This document shows positions 7,302 to 31,906 of a stretch of DNA of 42,601 nucleotides, piece by piece. The stretch covers positions 1 to 42,601 of the forward strand of contig NZ_KQ959927.1 in NCBI RefSeq assembly GCF_001553035.1. Direction: 5' to 3'. Both the position numbers and the translations under genes were made by a program. The DNA comes from Gemella haemolysans (GTDB lineage Bacteria > Bacillota > Bacilli > Staphylococcales > Gemellaceae). The notes beneath the pieces are model-generated. The model saw only the letters and a list, made by a program, of their open reading frames with translations. It was not told the origin of the DNA and searched no databases. Numbering within the stretch: position 1 is the stretch's first letter; the number at the start of each line of letters is the position of its first letter.

Positions 7302-7312
7302 GCTATTTCCTC

Positions 7313-8113: not shown

Positions 8114-8139
8114 ACTTATATTCTCCTTTTATAACAGTT

Positions 8140-9199: not shown

Positions 9200-9228
9200 A
9201 TTATACTACTTCAAAACATTTTTTAAAA
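9200..9228 (-). promoter_or_regulatory. Likely selD operon promoter
   Basis: Minus-strand -10 TATAAT (9205-9200) is 17 bp from a weak -35 TTTTAA (9228-9223). The -35 hexamer overlaps the first bases of the 29-bp attachment site, so element integration leaves the promoter intact but changes everything upstream of it. Confidence 0.5.
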
Positions 9229-9253
9229 GTATTATTTAGTTTTTTAATGTAAA
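9225..9253. repeat. attL: left copy of the 29-bp attachment core
   Basis: 29 bases identical to 22711-22739, same orientation. The flanking bases differ (T versus C to the left, T versus A to the right), so the repeat is exactly bounded. It lies next to the integrase gene and about 60 bp from the selD start. Confidence 0.9.
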
Positions 9254-9286
9254 TTATCCTTGTTCTATTAGATATCTAGCAACCTG

Positions 9287-9304
9287 CTCTCCGTTAACTC
9301 TCCG
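9287..9304 (+). repeat. Integrase arm-site pair, left end
   Basis: CTCTCCG at 9287-9293 and again at 9298-9304, spaced 11 bp (about one helical turn). The same pair with the same spacing recurs at 20678/20689 and 22587/22598. It lies between attL and the end of the integrase gene. Confidence 0.65.
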
Positions 9305-9308
9305 ACTT

Positions 9309-10412
9309 TTAAATACTCATGAATTTATAGAATTTTTCTGTAGTTTCTTTACTTTTTTCATCTGTAATATGAGTGTATGTATTCAATGTAGTTGTTATAT
9401 CTTTGTGACCTAATCTATTTTGAATTTCTTTCGCACTCAAGTCACTTTCAAATAATAAAGTTGCGTGAGTATGGCGGAAACCGTGCGGGGTTATCTGTTT
9501 TAGTTTTGGAAAATCTCTGTATATCCTTAGTAACATACCATTAAAATAGTGTCTTGAGTTTTTTATAAATACTCCATTATTAATACTTATAAAGTTATCT
9601 AGTTCTCTATAACTCTTCAATTCTTTAATGGTTTCATCATCAAGAAATATAATTCTTTCACTTGATTTTGTTTTAGTCGTTGAGATTTTCGACTTACTTC
9701 CGATATTCATCATATTTTTACTAATAGTTAATGTTTTTTTCTTAAAATTAATATCTTTCCATGTTAAAGCCCTCAACTCTCCTAAACGAATACCAGTAAA
9801 AGCTAGTATGCGAAAAGCTATATAAGTTTCACTTGAATAATTTTCCTTAACTATTTTTAAAAACTGTAACAATTCTTTTTTAGTGTAATAATTCTTTTTC
9901 TTTTCTTCTATCTTCTTAGGTACTTTAGTTAATTTCATATAGTTGGTAGGTATTATCTCCATCTTAACAGCATAATCTAAAATTTGAACTATAGTACCTT
10001 TTATTAAAGTTACATAGCCTTTTTTATAAGTTTTTGAAACCTCATTTATAAAGTTTTGGCAATATGGCAACTTAATATTAATGATTTTTAACTCTTTAAA
10101 AACTGGTAGTATCCTTTTATCTAGAATAGTTTTTATAGTATGATAGCTACTTTCTTTTACTTGTGTTTTGTGTTGTTCTTCCCAAAGTTTGTACACATCA
10201 CCAAAAGTAATATTTTCACTTCGTAGAAAGTTACTACCATTTAAAAACTCGTTCTTAGCCTTAACTATATAATTTTGTGCTTCTCTCTTTGTTCTAAACC
10301 CTTTTTTAGAAATTCTTTTTTCTTTTCCTGTGTAAACATTTTTACCAAGGTATTCATTTTTTACCTCGTAGTATTTTTTATTTTCTTTACTGTTAATGTA
10401 TTCTTTTATCAT
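9309..10412 (-). CDS. int: Site-specific tyrosine integrase of the element
   Basis: 367 residues in the standard three domains: an N-terminal arm-DNA-binding domain (about 1-55, TGKEKRISKKGFRTKREAQN), a core-binding SAM-like domain (about 65-165), and a catalytic domain. Catalytic residues visible are R209 (AFTGIRLGELRAL), H310 and R313 (TPHGFRHTHAT), H336 (RLGHKDI) and Y346 (TLNTYTHI). This matches Tn916/phage-type integrases. It is transcribed toward attL, which lies 56 bp past its stop. An arm-binding domain predicts short repeated arm sites, and the CTCTCCG pairs near both ends fit that. Confidence 0.96.
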   Translation of the reverse strand: MIKEYINSKENKKYYEVKNEYLGKNVYTGKEKRISKKGFRTKREAQNYIVKAKNEFLNGSNFLRSENITFGDVYKLWEEQHKTQVKESSYHTIKTILDKRILPVFKELKIINIKLPYCQNFINEVSKTYKKGYVTLIKGTIVQILDYAVKMEIIPTNYMKLTKVPKKIEEKKKNYYTKKELLQFLKIVKENYSSETYIAFRILAFTGIRLGELRALTWKDINFKKKTLTISKNMMNIGSKSKISTTKTKSSERIIFLDDETIKELKSYRELDNFISINNGVFIKNSRHYFNGMLLRIYRDFPKLKQITPHGFRHTHATLLFESDLSAKEIQNRLGHKDITTTLNTYTHITDEKSKETTEKFYKFMSI

Positions 10413-10430
10413 TTTCTCTCATTCCTCTCA

Positions 10431-10470
10431 CTAGTGCCAGTAGTTTTATAAATAAATGAAAATGTTAGCT
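10431..10470 (+). repeat. Dispersed repeat copy A (AGTGCCAGTAGTT family)
   Basis: Begins CTAGTGCCAGTAGTTTTATA and extends 40 bp. A second copy is at 15499-15537 (same strand) and a shorter inverted copy at 22531-22560. This copy lies just upstream of the integrase start. Its function is not known. Confidence 0.7.
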
Positions 10471-10482
10471 ACATTATGTAAG

Positions 10483-10572
10483 ATATGATATAATGAAGTT
10501 ATCTTTATTAGATGCATTCAAAATATCATTTTCGATTAAAATCACTGGTTTAAGTCAGTGATTTTTTTATTT
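10483..10572 (+). ncRNA. Candidate short RNA: promoter followed closely by a strong terminator
   Basis: An extended -10 (TGATATAAT, about 10485-10493) is followed within 75 bases by a perfect hairpin AATCACTG / CAGTGATT (about 10543-10565) and a T-rich tail. This sits in the 574-bp gap between int and fic, where no convincing gene lies. A 22-codon ATG frame overlaps the -10 box itself and is probably not used. The remainder of the gap holds the 10869-10951 tandem hairpins. Confidence 0.4.
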
Positions 10573-10868
10573 TGTCAAATAAAGTTAGCTTTCTCATAAA
10601 AAACACCTCATATTTTAAATGATACAGCCTTTAAAAAGATTTTTAGGGTTATTACTCCAAAAGATAAAGAAACCTTTTAGAAGCTGTTTAAATAGCTAAT
10701 ATAAGAATGCAGTTTACATAACTATATAAATTTATGTTTATATGCTATTTTTTCTTAAATCAAGTAGCAAAATGAAAGAATACCGCATCTTTCTCCAGTT
10801 AAGCAACACATTTACTAAAAATTCAAGTGGTTGTAAATTATTAGTTGATAACCATTAGAGATATTGAT

Positions 10869-10951
10869 AATGGAAAAAACCTCTAGATTTTCCATTTTGA
10901 GTTACTAAATTATTTCCATAATGGAAAAATCACCTGTATTTTCCATTTTGA
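10869..10951. repeat. Tandem hairpin repeat downstream of fic
   Basis: Two copies of a 32-bp unit, 10869-10900 and 10920-10951, start AATGGAAAAA and end TTTTCCATTTTGA. Each unit is an inverted repeat (ATGGAAAA / TTTTCCAT). The period is 51 bp. It lies about 35 bp beyond the fic stop codon and could serve as a doubled terminator. Confidence 0.65.
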
Positions 10952-10986
10952 ACTGTAAGCTATTGATTGACTGTTCAAACTCAATT

Positions 10987-11712
10987 TTAACAATCCATCA
11001 TACTAATGTATTTTTCAAGTTCTTCAATTTCATAATTCGCTATTAAGTCAGTAAGGTAATCAGCATTGTTATTAATATGATATTCATCAAAACTATTGTA
11101 GTACTTTTCTCTATCTGTAAATTTAATATTTACTGGTAGCAATCCATGTTTTATTAATTCAAAATTAAGAAGTAGTCTTCCTGTTCTTCCGTTTCCATCA
11201 ATAAATGGATGTATACTTTCAAATTCTAAGTGTAATAGAGCTATTGCCTTTAATATATGATGATGTTGTTTCCACTCCTCATATTTAACTAGCAATTCAT
11301 CAATATTTCTTTCTATTTCTTGCGGTTCGCTAGTCTTATGACTTGAACCTAATATTTGAACGTTAACTTGTCTAAATACTCCTTTATTCTCTCTATCATT
11401 CATTAAAACTAAGCTGTGTATATCTTTTATAACTTGTTTTGTCAATGGCTCGTTAACAATATCTAGAATATAATAAAAAGCGTCCTTATATCCTATTACC
11501 TCTAAATGTTCACGTACCTTTTTACCTTGAATGGTAATTCCTTGTTGCAATATTAAAGCCGTTTCCCTTAAAGTAAGAGTGTTCCCCTCAATAGCGTTAG
11601 AGTTATACGTATTCTCTATAATAAAATTTTCTCTTAGCTTTTCAAGTTCAGTCTTGTTTAAAGGTCTAAGCTTTGCTATTTTCTCTTGTAACTTATCAAT
11701 CTTATCAAACAT
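10987..11712 (-). CDS. Fic family protein (AMP-transferase type), class II with N-terminal inhibitory helix
   Basis: 241 residues. The Fic core HPFIDGNGRTGR is complete at 168-179 (consensus HxFx[D/E]GNGRxxR), so His168 can act. The inhibitory motif SNAIEGN at 38-44 fits [S/T]xxxE[G/N], with E42 expected to block ATP until relieved. Such proteins usually transfer AMP from ATP to a target hydroxyl. Start ATG 11712 follows AAAGGAAGTG. It lies 75 bp behind the repressor gene on the same strand, so it is probably expressed in the integrated, repressed state. That placement suits a host-protection or maintenance cargo gene, but the target is unknown. Confidence 0.93.
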   Translation of the reverse strand: MFDKIDKLQEKIAKLRPLNKTELEKLRENFIIENTYNSNAIEGNTLTLRETALILQQGITIQGKKVREHLEVIGYKDAFYYILDIVNEPLTKQVIKDIHSLVLMNDRENKGVFRQVNVQILGSSHKTSEPQEIERNIDELLVKYEEWKQHHHILKAIALLHLEFESIHPFIDGNGRTGRLLLNFELIKHGLLPVNIKFTDREKYYNSFDEYHINNNADYLTDLIANYEIEELEKYISMMDC

Positions 11713-11786
11713 TGTTTCACTTCCTTTAAAAATCTGTGGTTAGTTTCACTTCATATTACTATAATCAGATACTAATATCATTGTAT

Positions 11787-12884
11787 CTACTCCATTTTAC
11801 CTAATATAGGGGCTAGATATTTACAATCAGGCTTTTCAGTTATCTTTGTTATAAAGTAAGAATTATCATGATTTAATATGAAGTATTGTACTTCTGTATT
11901 TAGTGGTACGTCTTCTATATAATCATAATCGGCTAGATAATAGAGTACATTGTTTTTCTCAATTATCAGCCCCAGTATTTTTTTATAATTATCTAGACCG
12001 TATTTATTAGTATTTAAAAAATAACCGCTAGATTTTAAATAAAATGTATTTTTTTTAAAAATAACTTCCATATCATTTTCACACAGTTTAATCAGTGTTT
12101 CATAATTCATATATTCTATATGTTTTTTTGTAAGCATACCAAAAGACTGTTTATAATCTAGTTCATGAATAATGTATGAAAAGAATACATAAATAGAAAT
12201 TTTATTTTCTATATTACTTTTTGATAATAAGAGTAATGAAGTATATGTATCAAAATTAGCAATTATATATTTTTTTGTTTTATTAGAAATTCTAGAATTA
12301 TGAACAATTAAATTTCTTAAGTAAGACAAGTACTCATAATCGTATGATTTTGAAATACAATATATAGCTTGAATTAAAACTTCATTTTTTAAAATAGAAC
12401 GTACTTCATTTTCAAAAATCTCTATAGATGATGTTTGACTATCGATAAAATCAAGTATTTCAATAACTTTATTTTCTAATAAAGAATTAAACGCTTGCTC
12501 TATACTTTTTATATCATTTACAGAAATTTCAATTATTTTACTTGAGCAAATTTTCTCTATATATTCTATACAAAGTTCTACTAAATTATAAGTGTATAAA
12601 AGGCTTTTATACGGATATTTACTATTCATTAATAATACTTCAATATTATTTTCTAAAAACTCGTTAATAGAACCGTACAACAATTCATTAACGGTAATAC
12701 CTGCCATTTCACTAATATTAGCTAATCTTTCTTTATTAGGTAATGTAAAACCAGTTTCCCACTTTTGTGCATTACTTTTGGTAGCACTAAATACTTTTCC
12801 AAAACTTTCTAAAGTATACCCCTTACTAATTCTAATTTCTTTTATTCTAAAGCCTACTTGTTGTTTATCTATCTTTATTTTCAT
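11787..12884 (-). CDS. HTH (XRE-type) repressor of the element with a long unknown C-terminal domain
   Basis: 365 residues. Residues 1-65 form a Cro/CI helix-turn-helix (GFRIKEIRISKGYTLESFG ... SNAQKWETGFTLPNKERL). The remaining 300 residues are helical, rich in Ile/Tyr/Asn, with no LexA-type peptidase dyad that I can see and no match I recognise. A GTG at 12896 is in frame, but GAGGTGA lies ahead of ATG 12884, which is preferred. It diverges from the Cro-like gene across a region with paired operator-like repeats. The size and layout resemble satellite master repressors (Stl-like), which are relieved by a helper-phage protein binding rather than by self-cleavage; this is inference. Confidence 0.8.
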   Translation of the reverse strand: MKIKIDKQQVGFRIKEIRISKGYTLESFGKVFSATKSNAQKWETGFTLPNKERLANISEMAGITVNELLYGSINEFLENNIEVLLMNSKYPYKSLLYTYNLVELCIEYIEKICSSKIIEISVNDIKSIEQAFNSLLENKVIEILDFIDSQTSSIEIFENEVRSILKNEVLIQAIYCISKSYDYEYLSYLRNLIVHNSRISNKTKKYIIANFDTYTSLLLLSKSNIENKISIYVFFSYIIHELDYKQSFGMLTKKHIEYMNYETLIKLCENDMEVIFKKNTFYLKSSGYFLNTNKYGLDNYKKILGLIIEKNNVLYYLADYDYIEDVPLNTEVQYFILNHDNSYFITKITEKPDCKYLAPILGKME

Positions 12885-12954
12885 TGAATATATCACCTCA
12901 AATACTAATACATATTTTCATTATACATTATCTTTATAAAAAAAGAAACAAGAA

Positions 12955-13036
12955 AGTATAAAAATGAACTCAAAAAATAGTTGACATTACTTTTTTAGTA
13001 TGTTATTATGTTTATAGAGTATAAAACTGTACTCAA
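12955..13036. promoter_or_regulatory. Divergent control region: operator-like repeats and rightward promoter
   Basis: Two 19-bp direct repeats, AGTATAAAAATGAACTCAA (12955-12973) and AGTATAAAACTGTACTCAA (13018-13036), differ at only two positions, and the second contains the dyad GAGTA/TACTC. Between them lies a strong rightward promoter, -35 TTGACA (12981-12986) and -10 TATTAT (13004-13009), spacing 17. A leftward -10 TATAAT is also visible near 12922-12927. This is the expected genetic switch. Confidence 0.75.
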
Positions 13037-13060
13037 GAAAAAAAGAAGGTGGTGAATATT

Positions 13061-13273
13061 ATGGAAAAACCTAAAATTAATAAAATACGTGCATATCGTG
13101 AAGCATTAAATTTATCACAAAAAGAAATGGGAAAATTAATAAATGTACATCATGTTGTATACAGTCGTAAAGAAAGAAAAATAGTTAATTTTACAGATAA
13201 AGAAAAAATAACTTTACTCACTTATTTTAAGAAGTTTTTTCCAGATGAAACTATTGATACTTTATTTTTTTAA
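13061..13273 (+). CDS. Cro-like HTH regulator
   Basis: 70 residues starting MEKPKINKIRAYREALNLSQ. The XRE helix-turn-helix is KIRAYREALNLSQKEMGKLI ... VHHVVYSRKERK. Two GTG codons at 13049 and 13052 are in frame but overlap the ribosome site AGAAGGTGG, so ATG 13061 is the start. First gene of the rightward operon, transcribed from the TTGACA/TATTAT promoter and divergent from the large repressor. A Cro-type or activator (Str-like) role is inferred from position. Confidence 0.85.
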   Translation: MEKPKINKIRAYREALNLSQKEMGKLINVHHVVYSRKERKIVNFTDKEKITLLTYFKKFFPDETIDTLFF

Positions 13274-13383
13274 ATCTAAAGTATCAAAAAGGAACCAAAA
13301 AACTTTGCATTAAATTAAAATGCGAGCCAGTCTAATAAAAAAAATTCTCTTTATACCTTTTGTTGAATTATGAAAATGCATTT

Positions 13384-13448
13384 GCTAAAAATTAATCAAT
13401 CAGAAATGTTAAAAATTAACAAATGGATTTGTCAAAAACTAACAAATG
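13384..13448. repeat. Three iteron-like repeats, about 23-bp period
   Basis: GCTAAAAATTAATCAAT (13384), GTTAAAAATTAACAAATG (13408) and GTCAAAAACTAACAAATG (13431) are spaced 24 and 23 bp. They lie in the 783-bp gap between the Cro-like gene and the Rha-type gene, just before AT-rich tracts. They could be binding sites for an element regulator or a replication protein. Confidence 0.6.
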
Positions 13449-13495
13449 TAATCAAAAGAAAAATAAAAGATTAAATAAAGAGAATGTATATATAA

Positions 13496-13692
13496 TCATT
13501 CATCATTATATATATTATATATAGGGTGGGAAGAATTGGGAATATCGAAGTAGACAAAATGACCATATCTGAAATGGTCAAAATGACCACTTCTCAAGTA
13601 GACAAAATGACCACACCTATACCAAATAATAAAAAATAATAACAATGATTTATATTATATCATCATTCATCATATATATATTATATATAGGG
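13496..13692. repeat. AT-rich direct repeats flanking a small segment
   Basis: A 31-bp sequence TCATTCATCAT-(AT-rich)-TATATATAGGG at 13496-13526 recurs at 13663-13692 with a one-base deletion. Each copy ends in GGG followed by a potential GTG start. The block between contains the 24-bp VDKMT repeats. Confidence 0.7.
13526..13639 (+). pseudogene. Possible remnant of a phage replisome-organizer gene, with 24-bp in-frame repeats
   Basis: A 37-residue frame from GTG 13526 contains VDKMTISE-MVKMTTSQ-VDKMTTPI then a stop. The underlying DNA repeat (AAGTAGACAAAATGACCA) occurs at 13548, 13572 and 13596, period exactly 24 bp, i.e. eight codons. From family knowledge, VDKMTTP-like octapeptide repeats occur in phage replication-initiator proteins, where the coding repeats can double as origin iterons. 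No ribosome site of quality and no HTH domain are present, so I read it as a remnant or as DNA binding sites rather than a working gene. Confidence 0.4.
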
Positions 13693-13781
13693 GGTGATTT
13701 GACTGAATGAGAGATAAAAAAAGAACCTTTATACCGTTATCAGTTCGCCAAAACAATCTAACGTTATAAGGTTTGAAAACC

Positions 13782-13842
13782 GCTATTTACTAAAAAATAA
13801 CTTACTTTTATTATATCGTAAGAACCCTTATTAGTAAATAGC
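13782..13842. promoter_or_regulatory. Large nested hairpin upstream of the Rha-type gene
   Basis: Perfect 12-bp arms GCTATTTACTAA (13782-13793) and TTAGTAAATAGC (13831-13842) enclose a second hairpin CTTAC/GTAAG. No strong T-run follows. It may be a leader attenuator or a cruciform-forming site. It is one of several long-range inverted repeats in the element. Confidence 0.55.
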
Positions 13843-14056
13843 AAAGCACAAAATAAATATAACTATCTAAATTTGTTGAATAGATTTTCTAATGTGTTTA
13901 AACCTACTCTATAGATTTAATGAACACTTTAGAACCTATATAAACCTTTATTTAGTCAGCAGTATTTATTTTGAAAGAATAGAATTACTATACTCTATTC
14001 TTCTATTTAATTTAATAAGGGCTTTTTGTCACGCCCTAGAAATGAGGTGAAAGACA

Positions 14057-14647
14057 ATGACAAACACAAATATAATAAAAATTGATGGCAATACAGTAGA
14101 GGTAATAAGTGAAACATTACATATTACTGATATTAATAATAAAACAGAGTGGACTAGCGTCGAACTTGTAGACGTTATAAACCATTTTAGAACTCTAGAC
14201 GGGAAAAAAACTCAATTAAGACATGATACACTTTTAAATATCTTACGTGATGAATTTAGCGAAGAAATCTCACTCCAAAATATTTTGGAACGAACTTACA
14301 CTAATTCACGTGGTCAAACATATCCAATGTATAAACTTTCAAATTCACAAGCTAAACAAATATTAGTAAGAGAAAGTAAAGCTGTAAGGCGTGCGGTTAT
14401 CAAACTACTAGAGTACCTAGAGCAACATAACAAGCATAATCTTAATATTTTAAATGAGCGTGAAGCTTTTCTATATGAGCAAGGCTTAATTATTGATACT
14501 GTTGATAAAATGGCGGACTTGATAAAGAAAACTAAAGAACTTAGCAATAAAAAAGATATTTGCCAAAGAATTATCAATCTTATCAACGCTAGTCAAAGTA
14601 GTGTACCGTTGCCAACTAGAACAGCTTACACTACTACTTATAATTAA
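14057..14647 (+). CDS. Rha-family phage regulatory protein
   Basis: 196 residues. Residues 25-125 match the phage regulatory Rha layout: WTSVELVDVINHF (the usual TS-x2-VAE region), then a short acidic stretch, TYTNSRGQTYPMYKLSNSQAKQIL, and a helical end. The C-terminal 70 residues are a predicted coiled coil. Family knowledge: Rha-type proteins are lambdoid and Gram-positive phage regulators; some block growth in hosts lacking IHF, but their general role is unclear. Start ATG 14057 follows GAGGTGA. It heads the mid-operon group that runs to 15451. Confidence 0.75.
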   Translation: MTNTNIIKIDGNTVEVISETLHITDINNKTEWTSVELVDVINHFRTLDGKKTQLRHDTLLNILRDEFSEEISLQNILERTYTNSRGQTYPMYKLSNSQAKQILVRESKAVRRAVIKLLEYLEQHNKHNLNILNEREAFLYEQGLIIDTVDKMADLIKKTKELSNKKDICQRIINLINASQSSVPLPTRTAYTTTYN

Positions 14648-14663
14648 AAGGCGGTAAAGTATT

Positions 14664-14795
14664 ATGAAACAAACAAAAATGAATAACGAGCACAAAGAAA
14701 TGTACATTAATACTTTATGTTTAGCGTTAGTAGGGTTTCCGTTAGTGTATGCTTTTACCTACATTATAGCCCGATTTATGGACGTATTTTATTAA
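14664..14795 (+). CDS. Small membrane protein
   Basis: 43 residues from ATG 14664, 16 bp after the Rha-type stop, with the ribosome-binding sequence AGGCGGTAAAG before it. Residues 16-38 are strongly hydrophobic (NTLCLALVGFPLVYAFTYII), one membrane span, with a charged N-terminus (KQTKMNNEHKE). Tight spacing on both sides (19 bp to the next gene) argues it is translated. Similar tiny membrane proteins are common in phage early regions. I do not recognise a family. Confidence 0.65.
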   Translation: MKQTKMNNEHKEMYINTLCLALVGFPLVYAFTYIIARFMDVFY

Positions 14796-14814
14796 AGAAA
14801 GGTAACAATAGATT

Positions 14815-15084
14815 ATGGAAGTTGTTTTAACTGAAAATCAAAGTTTGAAGATTAAAGAGCAAATTACTAATTTAATTAATGAGGTGATAAAAGAAAGACT
14901 GAACACTATTAACCCCGAAAAAAGGTATTTTACACGTACTGAATTACAAAAGTACCTAAATATAGGGGCTAGTAGCATGGAGCAACTACAAGCGTTAGGG
15001 CTTCATTATGTAAAGGTTGGTAATAGACATTTATTTGATATTCAAGAAGTATATGATATTTTTGAAAATCACAAAGTAAGATAG
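14815..15084 (+). CDS. Excisionase-like small DNA-binding protein
   Basis: 89 residues. The C-terminal half RYFTRTELQKYLNIGASSMEQLQALGLHYVKVGNRHLFDIQEVYDIF is a winged-helix MerR/excisionase-type fold (helix-turn-helix then a beta wing with the VGNRHLFD turn). The N-terminal 35 residues are a charged helix. In elements like this, such a protein usually serves as Xis, bending DNA at the att arms to direct excision. It might instead be a general regulator of the DUF771/HTH_17 kind. The ribosome site AAAGG lies before ATG 14815. Confidence 0.65.
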   Translation: MEVVLTENQSLKIKEQITNLINEVIKERLNTINPEKRYFTRTELQKYLNIGASSMEQLQALGLHYVKVGNRHLFDIQEVYDIFENHKVR

Positions 15085-15100
15085 TTATGAGGTAATAAAA

Positions 15101-15451
15101 ATGGAACTAAACGAGATTATAGAAGATAAAAAAGAATTAACCGAAGTTATAAAGGATATTGAGGAAATAGCCCAAAGATTAGCAAGCTTGCATGTTTCAA
15201 TGCGAATATTAGCTACACATTGCTTGGTTATTAACACACTCTCAACAGATGAGTTTAAAACCTTAAAAATAACGGAAGAAGAATTGTGGAAGTATTGGGA
15301 CAAAGTGCAAAACGGTAGAAACTTACATACGTTAACAGAAGAAACCGCTCTTCAGTTATCAGAAGAGTTAAGCTTTTTAATATATGTATCTCTAGAAGAA
15401 GTAAAAGAAGCACTACAAAATATTAATAAAGTATCAAACGATATTATTTAA
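15101..15451 (+). CDS. Hypothetical helical protein
   Basis: 116 residues, ATG 15101 with GAGGT ten bases upstream and 16 bp after the previous stop. Acidic and almost wholly helical, with heptad-like stretches at 1-40 (IIEDKKELTEVIKDIEEIAQRLASLHVS) and again near the end (SLEEVKEALQNINKVSND). I do not recognise it. Lies at the end of a four-gene block that shares close spacing, before a 270-bp gap. An accessory role in the element is all that can be inferred. Confidence 0.7.
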   Translation: MELNEIIEDKKELTEVIKDIEEIAQRLASLHVSMRILATHCLVINTLSTDEFKTLKITEEELWKYWDKVQNGRNLHTLTEETALQLSEELSFLIYVSLEEVKEALQNINKVSNDII

Positions 15452-15498
15452 TAGATGTAGAGCAATTACAAAATAGAACAATTTTAAAAAATATAAAT

Positions 15499-15537
15499 CT
15501 AGTGCCAGTAGTTTTATAAGTGAATGAGAATGTAGCT
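15499..15537 (+). repeat. Dispersed repeat copy B (AGTGCCAGTAGTT family)
   Basis: Same sequence family as 10431-10470, beginning CTAGTGCCAGTAGTTTTATA, with a few substitutions and one deletion towards the right. Lies 48 bp after the previous gene. Confidence 0.7.
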
Positions 15538-15545
15538 GTTTAAAG

Positions 15546-15635
15546 CACATATGAGCCTTTTAAAGTATTTCTTAGGTGAAATCATATCAAAGGAAAATAA
15601 ACGGCTTGTATGTGCCTTTATTTTAATCTACAAAA
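15546..15635. terminator. Long-loop inverted repeat, probable terminator
   Basis: Arms AAGCACATATGAGCC (near 15553) and GGCTTGTATGTGCCTTT (near 15603-15619) pair imperfectly and are followed by TATTTTAAT. Between the arms is AAAGGAAAATAAACGGC, close to AAAGAAAATAAACAGC at 16113-16127. It separates the 14057-15451 block from the next gene. Confidence 0.4.
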
Positions 15636-15724
15636 GCGTTTATTTACTAAAAATACTGTTGTTAGGCATAGCACTAGTTATTTTTATAAAATCAAAAAAC
15701 TAATTTTAAACAAGAGGTAAAACC

Positions 15725-16045
15725 ATGGAAATAAAAGACTTTAAAGAACACGTACTTAAAACTTTGTTAGAGTATGAACAGCTAAACAAAGAATTACAAA
15801 CAGTTAGAGAAACTTATATTACAGCCCTATCTAATTTTTACAAAGATAATAGAGTATTTTTTTGTACAGATAAAGAGGAACTTGTAAGAGAATTTTTTAA
15901 CAGTGAAATTTTTAATCAAGCCCACTTTTTAACAATTCATAAATCACTAATTAATGAAGTTGAAACAAATGTGAAAATTAAACACACTGAACTTGTAGAA
16001 GCGTTCAACATGTTAGATAAGTTATGGGAGAGAAAAGAAAACTAG
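15725..16045 (+). CDS. Hypothetical helical protein
   Basis: 106 residues, ATG 15725 with AAGAGGT eight bases upstream. Mostly helical and charged: residues 1-35 (KDFKEHVLKTLLEYEQLNKELQ) look like a coiled coil, and the centre has FFCTDKEELVREFFNSEIF. No family recognised. It is flanked on both sides by long inverted repeats. Size and position fit the small accessory genes that sit between regulators and the replication gene in satellites. Confidence 0.65.
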   Translation: MEIKDFKEHVLKTLLEYEQLNKELQTVRETYITALSNFYKDNRVFFCTDKEELVREFFNSEIFNQAHFLTIHKSLINEVETNVKIKHTELVEAFNMLDKLWERKEN

Positions 16046-16124
16046 CTTGTATTAGCTAATATTTTGCTTGTTAAAGCTCAAGAATAAATAAAATGGTATA
16101 TTTTTATCAAAAAAGAAAATAAAC

Positions 16125-16222
16125 AGCTTAGAAGTCGTTTAAATAATTCTGAATTTTACGTACAGGAAATTTATTTCTTGTGTACAAGTTGAGATTAGAT
16201 AACTTAAACGATATTGTAAGCT
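16125..16222 (+). promoter_or_regulatory. Long-range inverted repeat in the leader of the short recombinase gene
   Basis: AGCTTA...CGTTTAA (16125-16142) pairs with TTAAACG...TAAGCT (16204-16222), closing just before the AGAAAGGAA ribosome site of the gene at 16240. Inside is GTACA...TGTGTAC. The outer stem ends a few bases from the ribosome site, so it could affect translation. Confidence 0.45.
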
Positions 16223-16239
16223 AGAAAGGAACAAATACA

Positions 16240-16788
16240 ATGTATTATGTAGAACCGTTAAAGAACAAGGAAGACATAAAAATCCTTGATAGTTATTTTA
16301 AACAGCAAAATTCTAGAAATCACTTGTTATTCAACTTAGGTATTAATACACCTATGCGAGTAAATCAATTAGTAAAATTAAAAGTACGTGATGTGCTAGA
16401 TAAGGAAGAAATAACAGTAATAGTTGGTAGAAAGGTTATATCATTTCCATTAGGTAAAAAACTACAGAAATTGATAAAAGATTATTGTATAGATAAGGAA
16501 ACTAATGACTTTCTTTTTAAATCTTTGAGACTAAAAAGAGGTTATAAACCACTAACAGAAAACTATGTAAATAAAATTATAAAAAATGCAAGTCAAAAAT
16601 GTAATCTAAATAATATTGGTGCTAGTTCACTTAGAAAGACATTCGCATATTTCTATTATGAGCGAACTAAAAATATACGTAGTTTAATGAAACTACTAAA
16701 CCACCATGACCAATATTTTACTTTGCAATACATAGGGAAAAATGAGAATTTCTATAATGATAATTTCATAGAATGGGAAGAACTTTAA
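16240..16788 (+). CDS. Short tyrosine recombinase (catalytic domain only), His box altered
   Basis: 182 residues containing only a tyrosine-recombinase catalytic domain. Box I is NTPMRVNQLVKLKVRDV with R40. Box II reads GASSLRKTFAYFY: R132 is present, but the usual His three residues earlier is S129. The second His region is LLNHHDQYF (H155/H156), and Y164 in LQYIGKN is the candidate nucleophile. No core-binding or arm domain. Start ATG 16240 follows AGAAAGGAA. It may be an element-borne resolvase or accessory recombinase, or may act with the full integrase. Lack of the His is tolerated in some family members. Confidence 0.85.
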   Translation: MYYVEPLKNKEDIKILDSYFKQQNSRNHLLFNLGINTPMRVNQLVKLKVRDVLDKEEITVIVGRKVISFPLGKKLQKLIKDYCIDKETNDFLFKSLRLKRGYKPLTENYVNKIIKNASQKCNLNNIGASSLRKTFAYFYYERTKNIRSLMKLLNHHDQYFTLQYIGKNENFYNDNFIEWEEL

Positions 16789-16965
16789 CTATGAAAATAA
16801 AAAATATTTTTGTTCATTCCTCTTGTAGGTGATATGCGGAATAAAAATAAGTGAAAGTTGTTGAATATCTTGAAGAGAAAAGAAAAAACTCTATATATAG
16901 ATACGTAACAAACTATAAGATATGATACATAGTCAATGACTAAAATATATATTTTTAATATTTGT

Positions 16966-16995
16966 CAGTCAGTCAATCAACAGTCAGTCAATCAA
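16966..16995 (+). repeat. Perfect 15-bp tandem duplication
   Basis: CAGTCAGTCAATCAA occurs twice head to tail, after AGTCAATGACT (a dyad) at 16931-16941. It lies about 100 bp before the primase-helicase gene, in the 304-bp gap 16789-17092, which shows no gene. The TCAGTCA units could be binding sites controlling replication gene expression. Confidence 0.7.
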
Positions 16996-17092
16996 TAATA
17001 ATGTTAGCTAAACTTTGTTACATTGAATGCTTTAACTAGACTTACATTTCTATATAGAGCAAATAAAATAAACTTAGAAAGGAGTTGTTAGT

Positions 17093-19288
17093 TTGATTTA
17101 TAAACAAATTGGAACAACTACAAATAAACTTACTAAAGTACACCATAAACTATCACCTTTTGAAACCATAGCAATAACGCCGATAGACATCATAGAAGAT
17201 ACGGAAAACAAAGAGAATTATAAACGTTATAAAGCTATTCAATTCGTAAGTGGTGAATTTAGCGAGGAAGAGAAAAAGCCAATCATTAGGAATAACGAGA
17301 ATTTATATTATAGAGATTTAATTATAATTGATATTGATGAAATAGAACTCAACAGTAATCAAGCAATTAATTTAATTAAATGTGAACTACAGGAATTTAA
17401 ATATTTATTGTATGCTACTCTTAACCATACGGAAGATAAACCACGTTTTAGGCTTGTTTTAGAGCCAACAAAGAAAATGAATGAGAATGAGTATAAAGCT
17501 ACTATAATTCATGTTATGGCTTTGTTAAATATGAATTTTGATGAACATAGCTTCACATGGTCACAACCTCAAGGAGCACCAATAACCACTAAAAGTAATA
17601 GTAATAACTATGTTTTCATCAAAAAATTACAAGGAAATAAATTTCCAGTACAACAGCCAAAACAAGAATATTTTCAATACTCTAATACTTATGAAAACTA
17701 TTCAATTTCTCATGATGAAGCTATACAAAGAGTAAAAGAATACACTGAAAGAGAAAGTAAAAATCTAGAGAAAAGAAGTAATTTTATTTCTTGTATTATG
17801 GTACTTTGTAAAGCAGTTACAACAGGTGAAATAGAATATGTTACGGGGCTTGAATGTAGTAGACTATTAGCAAATATTCCTAACAGTTTCCCAAAATGGG
17901 AACAAGAAAATCAACAAATGTTTAATGAAGAGCTAAAACGCTCTAGAGGTAACGTAAATTATTTTAAAACAAAATATAGTTTTAAAGAAAAATTTTCACA
18001 TAAAAATAAAAAAACTAAGAAGCAAGATAAAAAGAAAGGTGGAACAATTTTGATAGAATTAACAAACTCAATCAAACAAATAAGAAATATTAAGTACAAT
18101 GAAATGACAAATCTAATTGAAATAGAGAAAGACGGTTGTTTTAAAACTCTAGAAAATAGAGATATACAACTATTAAGATTGAATTTATCTGAAAAAAAAA
18201 ACACAACATTTTCTACAGATGATATTAAAACCTCTATATATGGAATTAGCGAACTAAATAGATACCATCCTATTAAAGAACTTATAGAAGCTGTTCAATG
18301 GGATGGAGTAAAAAGAGCGGAAAAATTCTTTATTGATTGTTTAGGGGTTGAAGATAACGAACTTAATAGAGAAGTTACAAGAAAATGGTTATTAGCTTGT
18401 ATTACTAGACTATATGAAAAAGGGCGTAAATTTGATGAAATGTTAATATTGTTCGGTGGTCAAGGTATTGGGAAAAGTACCACTCTTGAACGCTTGGCAT
18501 TAGATACATTTTATACAAAAGTAACTGGTAAATTGAGTAATGAAACTATTCTACAAACTTCAAAAACATGGCTAGTTGAATTGGACGAACTAAGCACTTT
18601 ATTAAGAACACCAAGTGAAGAGTTTAAAGCGTGGTTATCTTCAAGAAAAGATACTACTAGAGTACCTTACGAAGCCCAACCGCTAGACTTTGAAAGAGGG
18701 TTTATAGTATTGGGAACAACTAACAACAAGAAGATATTGAAAGATAATACAGGAAATCGTAGATTTTGGATATTAGACTGTAATAAAGATAATATCAAGA
18801 CATCTATTTTTAGCTTAACTAAACAAGATATACTTCAAGTATGGGCGGAAGTTAGAACATGGTATCTTAAAAATGAAAGTCTTTTGTTAAGTCAAACAGC
18901 TAGAAAGATGATGGAAGAAAAAACAGAAAACTATGTTATACCTATTCCATTTACTGATGAAATAAAGAATATTACTAATATGAAATTTCCTCGTAACTGG
19001 AAAGAAATTATACACGGTAAACACAAGTATAGGTTACATAGATACGTTACTGATATGTTAAACGCTGGAACAAGTACAGAAGATATTTCACAAGATGTAT
19101 TGTTAGATGATATTACTACACAAGAACTTTTCTTCTTACTAACTGGTAATTATAGAACCTTTCTAAATGGTTTAAAAGCTACTAAAGATTTTAGTAACGT
19201 TTTTAATATGTTAGATAATTGGAAATCTTCCAAAGCCATTTCACGTGGTGAAAAAAGAGATTTGAGGGGCTATAAAAAAATCAATTAA
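17093..19288 (+). CDS. Replication protein: primase-like N-terminus fused to VapE/VirE-type helicase
   Basis: 731 residues. The start is TTG 17093, eight bases after AGAAAGGAG, the only ribosome site nearby. Residues 60-190 resemble a small archaeo-eukaryotic primase-polymerase: IIIDIDEIE with D80/D82, and YATLNHTEDKPRFRLVL around 107-123. A lysine-rich linker (300-317) leads to a virulence-associated-E helicase domain: YHPIKELIEAVQWDG, Walker A GGQGIGKST (455-463), Walker B WLVELDEL (493-500) and NRRFW. Such Pri-Rep proteins drive autonomous replication of satellites after excision. The iteron-flanked AT tract right after the gene is its expected origin. Confidence 0.9.
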   Translation: MIYKQIGTTTNKLTKVHHKLSPFETIAITPIDIIEDTENKENYKRYKAIQFVSGEFSEEEKKPIIRNNENLYYRDLIIIDIDEIELNSNQAINLIKCELQEFKYLLYATLNHTEDKPRFRLVLEPTKKMNENEYKATIIHVMALLNMNFDEHSFTWSQPQGAPITTKSNSNNYVFIKKLQGNKFPVQQPKQEYFQYSNTYENYSISHDEAIQRVKEYTERESKNLEKRSNFISCIMVLCKAVTTGEIEYVTGLECSRLLANIPNSFPKWEQENQQMFNEELKRSRGNVNYFKTKYSFKEKFSHKNKKTKKQDKKKGGTILIELTNSIKQIRNIKYNEMTNLIEIEKDGCFKTLENRDIQLLRLNLSEKKNTTFSTDDIKTSIYGISELNRYHPIKELIEAVQWDGVKRAEKFFIDCLGVEDNELNREVTRKWLLACITRLYEKGRKFDEMLILFGGQGIGKSTTLERLALDTFYTKVTGKLSNETILQTSKTWLVELDELSTLLRTPSEEFKAWLSSRKDTTRVPYEAQPLDFERGFIVLGTTNNKKILKDNTGNRRFWILDCNKDNIKTSIFSLTKQDILQVWAEVRTWYLKNESLLLSQTARKMMEEKTENYVIPIPFTDEIKNITNMKFPRNWKEIIHGKHKYRLHRYVTDMLNAGTSTEDISQDVLLDDITTQELFFLLTGNYRTFLNGLKATKDFSNVFNMLDNWKSSKAISRGEKRDLRGYKKIN

Positions 19289-19353
19289 AGATGGCGTTAA
19301 AGAACATTTCAAAGTTAGTAAACGCCACCTATAAAATGTTATAACATCAGTAT

Positions 19354-19484
19354 TTAGGACGTATTGGACGTTTAAGGCATTTTTTCATATATTATATATA
19401 ATAATAAATATATATAATATAGTATATATTATATTCCTACTAATACGAACCAAAAAAACGTCCTAAAACGCTGTAACGTCCTAA
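19354..19484. other. Candidate replication origin of the element
   Basis: TTAGGACGT (19354-19362) and a variant ATTGGACGT (19363-19371) lie left of a roughly 50-bp tract that is almost pure A/T (19381-19435). To the right, ACGTCCTAA occurs at 19458-19466 and 19476-19484, i.e. the same 9-mer on the opposite strand. Two sets of iterons around an AT-rich region directly 3' of the rep gene is the described plan of SaPI origins. The remaining gap (19289-19915) holds only inverted-repeat arms (GGCGTT/AACGCC at 19293-19326) and no gene. Confidence 0.65.
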
Positions 19485-19915
19485 GCCTTTCATATCAAGG
19501 ATGAATAAGAGCCGTTTAGATGAAAATCAAATGGAGTTTTAAACGCCCACTACAAATAGTTTGAGGATTGTTATGTAATAATTAGAAAATATTACACATC
19601 AACTTTATTGAATAAAGAAAGATATTACATAATTAATAAAAATAGCTTTTCAAGAATGTTTTTCAAAAATTTACAATAATATATTTAGAAAGAAAACTAA
19701 TCAAGTTAAGATAACAAGATTAGTTTTCTTTATTTTACTATTATTTCAAATGCTAACAGCTTTTAAGAGGTTGAAAGGTATTAATTTTATCAAAATAAAA
19801 TTAGAATGCTTATACACCTTTTAAATGGCTCTTAATTTTAAGAAAAGAACTTGAAACAGAAAAATATATAGTATATCATTGAATTTCAATATTAAAACAA
19901 AGAGGTTAACTCATT

Positions 19916-20065
19916 ATGAATGAAAACTCACCAAAGCAATATGATATTGAATGTTTAGAAGATATACACGATTTAATAATAATGAATGAGTATGAAGAAA
20001 GAAAAGCAAATAATGAAGTTGAATATATAACTTTTGAAGAGATGAAAGAAGTACTTGATATATAG
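19916..20065 (+). CDS. Small acidic protein resembling the C-terminal half of RelB-type antitoxins
   Basis: 49 residues from ATG 19916, preceded by AAAGAGGTTAAC. It reads MNENSPKQYDIECLEDIHDL ... ITFEEMKEVLDI. The pattern DxExLEDIxD plus a terminal S/TxEExxxxLG/DI helix is that of the toxin-binding tail of RelB/StbD-like antitoxins, but the DNA-binding N-terminus is missing and no RelE/ParE-like toxin follows. It could be an orphan antitoxin fragment, an anti-toxin decoy, or an unrelated small acidic protein. Confidence 0.55.
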   Translation: MNENSPKQYDIECLEDIHDLIIMNEYEERKANNEVEYITFEEMKEVLDI

Positions 20066-20200
20066 AGTTTATTGCTAAGAACAAGTACTGATTTAAGTTT
20101 ATATTTCTTACTACATTTAACTAAAAATTTCTTGTAATTACATAAAATATTATTTACAATAAAGGTATAAGATAACATTTTTAAAAGGGAGTAGATTTAT

Positions 20201-20497
20201 ATGTTAGAATTAAAGATATTTTATAAAACTGGTGTAGAAACGTTTTATTGTACAAATTATAACGCTATGTTAGATACAATATCAGATGAAGTAAGTAACA
20301 ATATTATAGATGACTTGCTAGCATACATTGAAGATATTACTTTACTTGAGAATAAGGGAGTTATGAACGAACAACTATTTAACAAGTATTTACGTAGACT
20401 GAAAGAACAGCAATACAAAGAAATAATATTACTACATCTTGAGAAATTAGGGTTAGATTATGAGATTAATAAATTAAAACGTTCTGAATATAGATAA
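20201..20497 (+). CDS. Hypothetical protein, last gene of the rightward operon
   Basis: 98 residues, ATG 20201 with AAAAGGGAG eleven bases upstream. It starts MLELKIFYKTGVETFYCTNY, a probable beta hairpin, then helices to the end (LDTISDEVSNNIIDDLLAYIEDI; KYLRRLKEQQYKEIILLHLEKLGLDYEI). I do not recognise a family; the helix-rich acidic character and position after the replication module are like satellite interference or accessory proteins, but nothing in it proves this. A perfect long-range inverted repeat (20513-20599) follows. Confidence 0.65.
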   Translation: MLELKIFYKTGVETFYCTNYNAMLDTISDEVSNNIIDDLLAYIEDITLLENKGVMNEQLFNKYLRRLKEQQYKEIILLHLEKLGLDYEINKLKRSEYR

Positions 20498-20512
20498 TAA
20501 AATTTTAGTAAC

Positions 20513-20606
20513 GGCTATTTGAGATAATTTAAAATTATTAGAAATGAAAACTTGTGAAGATTAAAAAAATTCTAGTAATTAAGATTAAGTCAAATAGCCC
20601 CTTTTT
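20513..20606 (+). terminator. Long-loop terminator of the rightward operon
   Basis: GGCTATTTGA (20513-20522) is perfectly complementary to TCAAATAGCC (20590-20599), which is followed by CCTTTTTTATC. The 67-nt loop is unusually long for a simple terminator, so the loop may itself be structured. Confidence 0.6.
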
Positions 20607-20677
20607 TATCATCTTTAAATACGGTATTTAATTTTTAAGTACTCTAGAGCCTTGATATACTTGACTTTTTAAAAATA

Positions 20678-20695
20678 CTCTCCGAAAACTCTCCG
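20678..20695 (+). repeat. Internal copy of the integrase arm-site pair
   Basis: CTCTCCG at 20678-20684 and 20689-20695, 11-bp spacing, AAAA between as at the right end. It is 2 kb from attR, further than arm sites usually are. Confidence 0.6.
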
Positions 20696-20830
20696 AAGTT
20701 AGACGAAAAAAACTATTTTTTGTTAAAAATCATTTTAGAAACTGAAAAGCAAAATAGAAATATTTTAAGATAAACAGATTTAATTGCTAGTAAAAATATA
20801 CACATTCAAAAGCTAGATATTTTAAATACT

Positions 20831-20953
20831 GGTATGTGCATTTTTTACACATACCATACTACATTATTTATTTTAGTGAATTAAAAGAGATTAATATAAA
20901 TCGTATAGAGCTAAGTTAATATAGGTTGGTGCATTTTGCACTAACTTTATTTT
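20831..20953 (+). terminator. Two consecutive hairpins
   Basis: GGTATGTG (20831-20838) pairs with CACATACC (20848-20855). Then GTTGGTGCA (about 20926-20934) pairs with TGCACTAAC (about 20936-20945), followed by TTTATTTTTT, a good rightward terminator. Both loops centre on a GCATTTT motif. There is no gene between them, so a short RNA with its own terminator is possible. Confidence 0.5.
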
Positions 20954-21780
20954 TTAGTTTGTATATTTTTATAAAGAAATTAAATATTAAACCCTCTGTA
21001 TATCTTTTGTATGCTCTCTACTCTAGATACAAACCTAGTAATCATACAAGGTACATTGATTATACTGGAGTATACAAGAGCTTGTTTATTTTATGTAGTT
21101 CTCTATAAAAGGTATTTATCTTAAAAGAATATCTAACAAAGAATTACAAGAGTATTGATATTCAAGAGAAGTAATATTATATGGTGATAATTGCTTCGCT
21201 ACATTAATGCAAGAGGTAGCTAAGTATATATACTAATCATATACAAGTAATTAAGATTATGTATAGATATCTAAATAAGTTGATTAATGGTATCAGATAC
21301 TAGAGGATAAGCAACACTAATATATATTCATTCGGTTATATCATATCATTATATATTCATAGATAGCTAACTAATGTAGATTGATATGTACTATATACTG
21401 TTGGGCTTATTCCAGTTACCTAATCACCTTATACCATATGGCTATATACTTGATACAAGTATCATGATTGAATAGGTTTGTTGTAAGTGATAGATAGATA
21501 CATCAAGTAATTAGTAACAATGAACTAAGATGTAAAGATAATATGAAAGTAGATTAGATTAATATGTTATCAATGAATGTAATATGATTATGAAAAGAAT
21601 ATGTAAAAGATTAAATAATTTAAACAAAAGAATAAATATTAATTTGTTTAATTGTATTTAACATTAAAGATGAAAGATAGAAAGATACAAAGATACAAAG
21701 GTATGAGCCAAGCCAAGGGCTAAGGATAGCATAAGGATATATTACTATAAAAGGTATGAGGTATACTTCCCTTAATTGAG
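20954..21780. other. Gene-free AT-rich stretch
   Basis: About 830 bp with no supported gene on either strand: the frames are short, lack ribosome sites and are rich in stops. It is made of simple motifs (TATATAC, GATAGATAGATAC near 21490, AAGATACAAAGATACAAAGG near 21680). A 60-codon frame at 20926-21108 overlaps the terminator and has no ribosome site, so I leave it out. In a satellite this is where packaging or cargo genes would be expected. Confidence 0.6.
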
Positions 21781-21897
21781 AAGACCGCCCCCCCTATTAA
21801 AAATCTCAAAAAATAAAAAAACTTAAAGACCAACCTGCCCTCATTCATTCACAATGGCACAACCTCGCTAACCATTATTGGAAAAATAAAGACAAAA

Positions 21898-22000
21898 AAA
21901 AGAACCTCTCATTTAATTTTGAGAAGTCTTCTAATATTTGCTAAACTTATTTCTACAGTAATTATAAACCATTAAAAATAAAAAATCAATAGGTTTATTT
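21898..22000 (-). ncRNA. Candidate small RNA with consensus promoter and terminator
   Basis: Minus strand: -35 TTGATT and -10 TATAAT separated by exactly 17 bp (-10 near 21966-21971), then about 60 nt with no reading frame, ending in a hairpin ACTTCTCA/TGAGAGGT (near 21914-21938) and TTCTTTTTTTT. It is the fourth minus-strand unit in a row at this end of the element. No similarity recognised. Confidence 0.5.
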
Positions 22001-22055
22001 CTTGAAATTCATCAATGATAAAATGTAGTTAAAAATACTTGCTGTAAATTTAATA

Positions 22056-22156
22056 AAAAGAAAAACGCTAAGGGCTGCAACCCAAAGCGTAAAAAATAAA
22101 CATATATCTGCAAAGATAGGTAACCTGTACCGCCTATCTTCCTTAAAATTATTATA
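22056..22156 (-). ncRNA. Tandem small transcript, unit 1
   Basis: Minus strand: -10 TATAAT (22156-22151) inside an inverted repeat ATTATAAC/GTTATAAT; a 5' hairpin AAGATAGG/CCTATCTT (22140-22113); a strong terminator ACGCT...AGCGT (22090-22065) with a T-run. The promoter block is closely similar to that of unit 2, but the 5' hairpin sequence differs from units 2 and 3. Confidence 0.5.
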
Positions 22157-22195
22157 ACATATACTTCTAAAGAATGAAAGTTATAATGTAGTTAC

Positions 22196-22296
22196 AAAAA
22201 ATAAAAAAAGCCTAGTGCCGAACACACTAAGCAAAAATAGAATTCATTCTTTAAGTGGGCGTGTTCCCGCATGCTCCACCTTTTAAAAATATCATA
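22196..22296 (-). ncRNA. Tandem small transcript, unit 2, with a possible 26-residue peptide
   Basis: Minus strand: -10 TATGAT (22296-22291); a 5' hairpin AGGTGGAGCATG/CGCCCACTT (22282-22253); terminator GCTTAGTG/CACTAGGC (22232-22210) with a long T-run. A frame from ATG 22272, seven bases after AAAGGTGG, runs to TAA 22192: MREHAHLK followed by a hydrophobic half rich in F, L, C and Y. The frame reads through the terminator stem. Could be a type I toxin-like peptide or pure RNA. Confidence 0.5.
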
Positions 22297-22335
22297 TCAT
22301 ATACTCTTAAAGAATAAAAGTTATGATATAGTTAA

Positions 22336-22423
22336 GCCTAGTGCCACAAACACTAAGCTAAAATAACATAATTTACTTTAAAGTGGACGTGTTCCCTCAC
22401 GTTCCACCTTTTCAATTATTATA
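22336..22423 (-). ncRNA. Tandem small transcript, unit 3, paralogue of unit 2
   Basis: Minus strand: -10 TATAAT (22423-22418), -35 TTTACT at 18-bp spacing; a 5' hairpin GTGGAACGTG/CACGTCCAC (22407-22383); terminator GCTTAGTG/CACTAGGC (22358-22336), identical in both arms to unit 2. A frame from GTG 22400 encodes MREHVHFKVNYVILA. The first eight residues match those of unit 2 as MREH(A/V)H(L/F)K, with synonymous changes at Arg and Lys. Confidence 0.55.
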
Positions 22424-22530
22424 TCATAGCAATACATAGCAAGTAAAACGATATACTAGAAATAATCAAAATTCTTGTTAAACTACTTTAATTTAACAAG
22501 AAAAAACAGATAGCAAAATACTACCTGTTA

Positions 22531-22560
22531 TCTCATTTATTTATAGAACTACTGGCACTT
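22531..22560 (-). repeat. Dispersed repeat copy C (inverted)
   Basis: Reverse complement AAGTGCCAGTAGTTCTATAA plus ATAAATGAGA matches copies A (10431) and B (15499). Copies A and C thus lie near opposite ends of the element in inverted orientation. Confidence 0.65.
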
Positions 22561-22576
22561 ATTTTATGTGTTTTTG

Positions 22577-22604
22577 TTTCCGAAAACTCTCCGAACTCTC
22601 TCCG
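22577..22604 (+). repeat. Integrase arm-site cluster, right end
   Basis: CTCTCCG at 22587-22593 and 22598-22604 (11-bp spacing), with a degenerate TTTCCG 11 bp earlier. It lies 107 bp inside attR and matches the pair at the left end. Confidence 0.65.
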
Positions 22605-22710
22605 AAAAGTCTTGAAATTTGATATTGTATAGAAATCTATTTCTTTAATATATCGTTATTATATCAACGGTTAGAAGTATTTTATATTAAAGTGAAATAG
22701 TATCATTATC

Positions 22711-22739
22711 AAAAGTATTATTTAGTTTTTTAATGTAAA
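22711..22739. repeat. attR: right copy of the 29-bp attachment core
   Basis: Identical to 9225-9253. It ends at the edge of the terminator stem at 22741, so the original target was the gap between that terminator and the selD promoter. Confidence 0.9.
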
Positions 22740-31809: not shown

Positions 31810-31906
31810 TGGCGGGAATGTGTGGGAATCGAACCCACCCAAGAGGCTCTTAACCCCTCATACTAGTTTTGAAGACTAGAGAGCACACCAGAACTCATCC
31901 ACTCCC
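31810..31906 (-). tRNA. selC: tRNA-Sec (anticodon UCA)
   Basis: 97 nt. The acceptor stem begins GGGAGTG and ends ATTCCCG-CCA with the CCA encoded. The anticodon arm CTAGT-CTTCAAA-ACTAG displays UCA, which reads UGA. There is a long variable arm (GAGG...CCTC) and a T-arm GTGGG-TTCGATT-CCCAC. The extended 8+5 acceptor/T-stem and long variable arm are typical of selenocysteine tRNA. It is 22 kb from the selenium operon. Promoter: -35 TTGATT (31947-31942), 17 bp, -10 TATAAT (31924-31919). Confidence 0.96.

Follow-up and report, generated by a model that had tools for sequence, protein, structure and literature searches.

Putative orphan type I antitoxin RNA genes arrayed on a satellite-like element in Gemella haemolysans

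The window analysed here, a stretch of 42,601 nucleotides from a Gemella haemolysans genome (G000), contains a 13.5-kb island bounded by 29-bp direct repeats (Table 1). The island has an integrase, divergent regulators, a VapE-type helicase/primase and att repeats but no structural genes, and none of the element proteins tested was identified as a virion protein. It further encodes a Cro-like regulator, a Rha-type anti-repressor, and an HTH protein, and its Fic/Doc protein also matched the PADLOC candidate defence family PDC-S04 (E 7.8e-43) and SoFic (E 3e-32). Such a layout is that of a phage-inducible island or satellite, and we refer to the island as a satellite-like element. Scans of the genome and viral contigs with VapE patterns gave no match, probably owing to the patterns chosen. 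A second tyrosine recombinase-like protein (182 aa, best match phrog_216) is encoded within the element at 16240-16788.

The element sits between a selD-like gene and a cell-wall-hydrolase-like gene. Its left flank is present in all nine genomes of the genus (9/9), in six of which similarity stops at the repeat core, and an empty site with both flanks joined was found in G005. The att site adjoins the selD-like gene; selenocysteine genes in the window (selB-like, selD-like, and tRNA-Sec) lie at 5049-9099 and 31810-31906.

An array of three related tandem units (A, B, and C) occupies 22.0-22.42 kb of the minus strand, inward of attR by about 290 bp. Every unit combines an extended -10 (TGnTATAAT-like) with two hairpins, the first of them at the 5′ end. 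An earlier note made from the sequence of the window had counted four units, each with a -10 box, a body, and a terminator. Three of these stand; the fourth (block D) has no 5′ hairpin of the A-C kind and matches neither of the covariance models (R1 and R2) described below. The -10 boxes and hairpins were confirmed in A, B, and C, but the second hairpin of unit A lacks a U-tract (GGCTTAACTAT) and is not called by a terminator scan, which does call the terminator of unit B (nine pairs). Block D, downstream of unit C, is possibly another small RNA. The loops of the hairpins differ between unit types. Opposite the units, no toxin-like open reading frame was found in the window or in the corresponding arrays of genomes G003 and G004 (see below), except for a toxin-tail relic at unit C, to which a profile of the toxins described below matches at positions 26-40 only (E 0.0012). 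With only this tail left and the cognate toxin gene missing, the units are orphans and not a complete toxin-antitoxin (TA) system. A plus-strand frame of 31 aa crossing the unit A terminator (MLHLLKISYHILLKNKSYDIVKPSATNTKLK, from about 22271) was rejected as a gene candidate: it has no convincing ribosome site, is of low hydropathy, and is absent from G003 and G004.

Table 1. Features of the element and its array (window positions) and complete toxin-antitoxin pairs in Gemellaceae (genome:contig:positions)
Feature	Position	Strand	Details
Satellite-like island	9225..22739		13.5 kb; 29-bp direct repeats 9225-9253 and 22711-22739
Tyrosine integrase	9309..10412	-	beside attL; PF00589 E 8.6e-26
Fic/Doc protein	10987..11712	-	PF02661 E 6.5e-21
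CI-like repressor with HTH	11787..12896	-	PF01381 just below cut-off; phage repressor PHROGs
VapE-type helicase/primase	17093..19288	+	PF05272 E 1.1e-62; phrog_256 E 3.8e-93
Block D	21903..21990	-	promoter-like TTGATT-17-TATAAT and intrinsic terminator; conserved in G003 and G004
Toxin-tail relic	22052..22096	+	KNAKGCNPKRKK frame; opposite unit C; remainder of toxin gene missing
Unit C	22056..22156	-	putative orphan antitoxin RNA gene, type as in the G. cuniculi complete pair; extended -10 TGTTATAAT; 5′ hairpin 22112-22141; terminator 22065-22090
Unit B	22203..22296	-	putative orphan antitoxin RNA gene, A/B type; -10 TATGAT 22291-22296; 5′ hairpin 22253-22281; intrinsic terminator 22210-22232
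Unit A	22335..22423	-	putative orphan antitoxin RNA gene, A/B type; extended -10 TGATATAAT, hexamer 22418-22423; 5′ hairpin 22380-22410; second hairpin 22335-22359
Complete pair (T1)	G000:C5:30816-30994		
Complete pair (T2)	G002:C2:156007-156186		G. cuniculi
Complete pair (T3)	G006:C7:629267-629445		
Complete pair	G012:C1:557860-557999		sister genus
Complete pair	G013:C9 near 24622		sister genus
Complete pair	G014:C109:37-300		sister genus

An absence of further copies in related elements, which the earlier note had named as fatal to its proposal, is excluded, as the same element is found at the same site and with the array in G003 and G004, which represent two other Gemella species. Genome searches with the array returned these copies together with shorter matches on contig 5 of G000 and in Gemella cuniculi (G002), and a pattern for the terminator had Gemella cuniculi DSM 15828 as its sole match among 84,980 species. 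At both of the latter loci, the sequence matching the unit C terminator (95% identical at the locus in the same genome) belongs to an RNA gene convergent with a gene on the opposite strand for a 39- or 40-residue peptide, MEELTYLLTIVNIFKGIIDILKYFQEQKKNAKGGNPKRK in G000 (T1) and MRELTFILLIINILKGLIDLYKFIDEKIKNAKGCNPKRKK in G. cuniculi (T2). A third complete pair (T3) is present in G006. The predicted toxins are 37-40 aa long with a hydrophobic start and a basic tail, and their last codons cross the shared terminator. The antitoxin RNAs of the complete loci have an extended -10, a 5′ hairpin to which the 5′ hairpins of units A and B align (GGGA-C..CGTCCAC), and a terminator whose complement encodes the toxin end KNAKGCNPKRK. 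The leaders of T1-T3 open with a short helix (GTAAG...CTTAC) and continue with CCCG..AAGGAAC and another stem, after which a strong ribosome site (GGGTGG) precedes the ATG; the motif CCCG..AAGGA recurs in five of the six toxin leaders of the family.

The family was extended with a covariance model, R1, built from seven antitoxin RNAs including unit C but neither A nor B, and searched across 157 genomes of the order. Beyond its own seven sequences, R1 matched two loci in G012 (E 8.6e-10 for the complete pair), one in G013 (E 4.2e-4), and one in G014 (E 4.6e-4), all in the sister genus; the other weak matches resemble ordinary intergenic terminators. At three of these four new loci the pair is complete, the convergent genes encoding MKVILYLFEHIQNVV..., MERFILFLDIIYKIL..., and, with a TTG start, SNFILILDVILKIL...; these peptides have a hydrophobic start and a strongly basic end (+8, +8, and +9 in the last 14 residues). 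Because the toxin profile missed all three at E <= 0.01 (it found nothing in G013 or G014 and only the tail relic of the orphan in G012), R1 predicted the sister-genus toxins independently. The fourth locus, G012:559293, is another orphan and lies in a prophage just before a terminase gene. The complete pairs of G006 and G012 are prophage-borne and likewise stand beside terminase genes, and those of G000, G002, G013, and G014 occupy chromosomal places. Elsewhere in the order the toxin profile also matched other genera, but none of the five matches inspected was a convergent pair, and searches of phages, plasmids, and viral contigs for the array or the toxin gave nothing useful. A small peptide at L034 is separate from the toxin family.

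In all six complete pairs (T1, T2, T3, and the three of the sister genus), an antisense RNA gene is thus coupled with a gene for a small hydrophobic peptide, in a convergent layout with a shared bidirectional terminator (transcription being predicted). Judged by this organisation, the pairs are a type I TA family of the Gemellaceae that curated models do not recognise at cut-off: the array stayed below the gathering score of every Rfam family, and the toxins tested reached the cut-off of neither a Pfam nor an NCBIfam family. The statement in the earlier note that no family like this was known therefore holds for the curated libraries, and the family is an addition to what they cover.

How firmly each unit belongs to this family differs. 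Unit C scores 97.5 bits with R1 in the window, being itself one of the seven sequences of the model. With the same model, to which they did not contribute, the E values are 0.028 for B, ranked second in the window, and 0.12 for A, ranked fourth. A second model, R2, built from A/B-type units only and without unit C, identifies A and B as paralogues (99.6 and 109.7 bits, respectively) and places unit C third in the window (E 0.07). No complete locus or cognate toxin of the A/B type was found in the 157 genomes of the order, so that membership of A and B rests on weak homology (E 0.03-0.12) and a common layout, and is less secure than that of unit C. Taking the homology, the layout, and the missing toxins together, we consider it very likely that all three units are orphan type I antitoxin RNA genes. 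A cognate toxin of the A/B type, if found, is predicted to contain AAAGTGGA or AAGTGGGC in its leader near the ribosome site.

This assignment bears on the other features first read from the array, and on the proposal that it might be a tandem type I toxin. The link to type I TA systems was right, but the units are putative antitoxin RNAs and not toxins. Were the units toxin genes, a ribosome site sequestered in the 5′ hairpin would start a short hydrophobic peptide, 26 aa long in unit B, and indeed AAAGGTGG precedes an ATG in unit B, whose peptide is fairly hydrophobic (15-aa mean 1.99). However, G003 and G004 retain the RNA body but have lost both AAAGGTGG and the start codon to deletion, the frame is lost in unit A, no comparable frame is present in unit C, a member of the same family, the peptide has no Pfam match, and the complete loci encode their toxin on the other strand, all of which make toxin-coding units highly improbable. 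The synonymous changes that had been taken as a mark of a conserved micro-peptide are also compatible with stem pairing, and on this comparison the micro-peptide is an accident of the hairpin sequence. Nor did the covarying inverted repeat described for the promoters survive: it pairs in both spacers of the window, but neither G003 spacer preserves the pairing (ATTATAAC opposite GATATAAT), and T1-T3 lack the repeat altogether. Given the break in G003, the repeat is most plausibly a chance product of an AT-rich -10 region.

We then evaluated whether antitoxin and toxin transcripts could pair, using duplex energies between the 3′ part of the antitoxin and the tail of the toxin mRNA, with z-scores against dinucleotide shuffles. 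Cognate pairs gave predicted duplexes of -71 to -81 kcal/mol. Unit C was predicted to pair strongly with the toxin mRNA tails of both G. cuniculi (-62 kcal/mol, z -10.8) and its own genome (-59 kcal/mol, z -8.4), and unit X of the G003 array (G003_2) with that of T1 (-56 kcal/mol, z -11.0); A/B units showed no strong predicted pairing with any known toxin. At the other end of the RNA, the 5′ hairpins paired with toxin leaders no better than with shuffles, even in cognate pairs (z about -0.7 to +0.2). In par, a second region of complementarity comes from the direct repeats DRa/DRb. By inspection, a 7-8 nt match at the ribosome site is seen in T1, T3, and G014, although duplex energies there were not above those of shuffles. 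With leader pairing no stronger than in the shuffled controls, this second contact is unproven. In terms of modelled complementarity, the terminator contact of the par model is thus well supported, and the leader contact is left as a candidate.

The content of the array differs among the three species. The unit order is A-B-C in the window, B′-X-C in G003, and B′-C in G004, where B′ is a B-type unit without its 5′ arm. Unit X is close to the T1 and T3 antitoxins and has no matching complete locus in the genome of G003 itself; the complete T1 locus resides in G000, where it keeps its own antitoxin and where the array has no X. The spacers, which carry TAACTACATTATAACTTT(C/T)ATTCTTTAGAAGTATATG, are nearly identical, which suggests that units may have been exchanged by recombination at the spacers.

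One explanation for such an array is that whole TA loci were inserted repeatedly, that the costly toxins were lost, and that the antitoxin halves persist without a job. The toxin-tail relic opposite unit C, the missing U-tract of unit A, and the deletion of A/B-type 5′ arms in G003 and G004 are all as expected of such relics. Yet three species have kept unit C with its promoter, hairpin, and terminator, its stem showing compensatory changes, and different specificities are lined up between near-identical spacers with every -10 intact. In the C-type stem, 92.9% of cells are paired across four sequences versus 31-61% with the partner slid, three pairs have changed on both sides, and 13 of 500 shuffles reach 92.9%; from four sequences, this is supportive but not strong evidence of selection at the RNA level. 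We regard non-functional relics as unlikely, though the foremost of the alternatives considered.

Type I antitoxins act on toxin mRNA, and an orphan antitoxin would therefore be useful only against toxins encoded elsewhere. Satellites live by exploiting phages and compete with prophages. Our overall reading, which we hold to be probable, is that orphan antitoxins are lined up on a satellite-like element and act in trans against type I toxins. This comes close to two other options of the earlier note, anti-helper sRNA and decoy RNAs, in that the array belongs to a satellite-like element while prophages harbour complete pairs of the family. From the comparisons above we infer transcription of the units, toxicity of the peptides, neutralisation in trans, and a benefit to the element.

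Mechanistically, the transcript of each unit would be about 80-95 nt long, with one hairpin at the 5′ end and another at the terminator. At complete loci, this RNA would be transcribed towards a small membrane-peptide-like gene that ends on the complement of the terminator. Because the last toxin codons lie there, the 3′ end of the toxin mRNA is the perfect complement of the antitoxin's terminator hairpin; some pairs also show a match of 7-8 nt between the 5′ hairpin and the Shine-Dalgarno region. By analogy with par of pAD1, pairing would start at the terminator loop, and translation would then be blocked. On the element, the toxin genes are missing and just the antitoxins, of different specificities, are left, which would act in trans on toxin mRNAs of prophages, phages, or chromosomal loci. 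Element and host might in this way be freed from addiction or from toxin-mediated exclusion, as a carrier of the antidotes would survive the loss or displacement of a prophage, or the use of its toxin for exclusion. That the array has such an anti-addiction function, protecting in trans against toxins encoded elsewhere, is a step that the evidence favours by a small measure. A more tentative proposal, which we would put forward as possible rather than expected, is that Gemella satellite-like elements carry an exchangeable array of RNA antitoxins, one for each toxin type met, which disarms type I toxins of prophages and grows or shrinks by recombination at the spacers.

The same RNAs could instead have been co-opted to regulate genes of the satellite, the helper phage, or the host in place of toxin mRNAs. 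PICIs carry accessory genes at the attR end, where the array is found, no cognate toxin is known for A and B, and the loops differ between types. However, unit C keeps its strong complementarity to toxin mRNA tails, which would be unneeded with a changed target, and no other target was noticed incidentally; we think co-option quite improbable, more so than relics.

Among known systems, par of pAD1 (Fst/RNA II) is the nearest in layout, with convergent promoters, a small antitoxin RNA, a bidirectional terminator as complementary region, an extended -10 before the antitoxin, a toxin leader in which a helix lies upstream and a stem-loop precedes the ribosome site, and a short peptide with a hydrophobic part and a charged tail (PMC7472228). 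In contrast to par, the Gemella terminator overlaps the last toxin codons instead of lying downstream, the T1-T3 toxins have NxxxG where Fst has PxxxG, and the toxin is absent from the array. PF13955 (Fst_toxin), which pAD1 Fst matches at 8.7e-5, matched neither T1-T3 nor the sister-genus toxins, and R1 and R2 gave nothing significant on four par loci. Enterococci offer a caution: there, the chromosomal paralogue is not countered by RNA II of pAD1 (PMC7472228), and near-relatives therefore need not be protective. A further point against the protective reading is that the genome of the window has a complete T1 locus that includes its own antitoxin. The 5′ hairpins of A and B also align from position 1 of the model for the Enterococcus antisense RNA Ref66 (Rfam RF02839), with its GGAACA loop. 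Membership in Ref66 was rejected (21.1 and 17.1 bits versus a gathering cut-off of 92); the genome-wide search was not significant, and matches also occurred in 8 of 14 unrelated control genomes.

In logic, the nearest system is pseudo-ToxI of phage PhiTE (type III), in which a mobile element likewise carries tandem toxin-less copies of an antitoxin RNA that change by expansion and recombination (PMC3475682). ToxI binds a protein (PMC3475682), whereas the Gemella RNAs would be antisense to toxin mRNA. The Gemella array, located on a satellite-like element, is made up of individual genes that each have a promoter and that differ in specificity. Anti-addiction modules of the protein kind, together with orphan antitoxins, also guard, without a toxin, against an incoming element (PMC12548467), unlike the Gemella antitoxins in being neither RNA nor arrayed. 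Anti-addiction by orphan antitoxins is thus already known for proteins (PMC12548467) and for the type III RNA ToxI (PMC3475682). In the literature covered, with most subscription papers outside its scope, we came across no description of type I antitoxin RNAs of several specificities in a tandem array, or of such an array on a satellite-like element. If the proposed function is true, the antidote RNAs would spare their carrier from being held hostage by toxin-bearing rival phages or mobile DNA, and the array would offer a simple genetic system in which to study how one mobile element disarms the addiction modules of another.

A small, highly charged protein (MSQEKKLTQYAKRQARLTEEEK-like; L095:9031-9288 and L018:10033-10257) was also observed near the complete pairs. 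Neither of the two such proteins tested had a PHROG match. In both G. cuniculi and the G012 prophage it comes directly after the antitoxin promoter, and the G006 pair is adjoined by a start that resembles it; this charged protein may travel with the TA pair.
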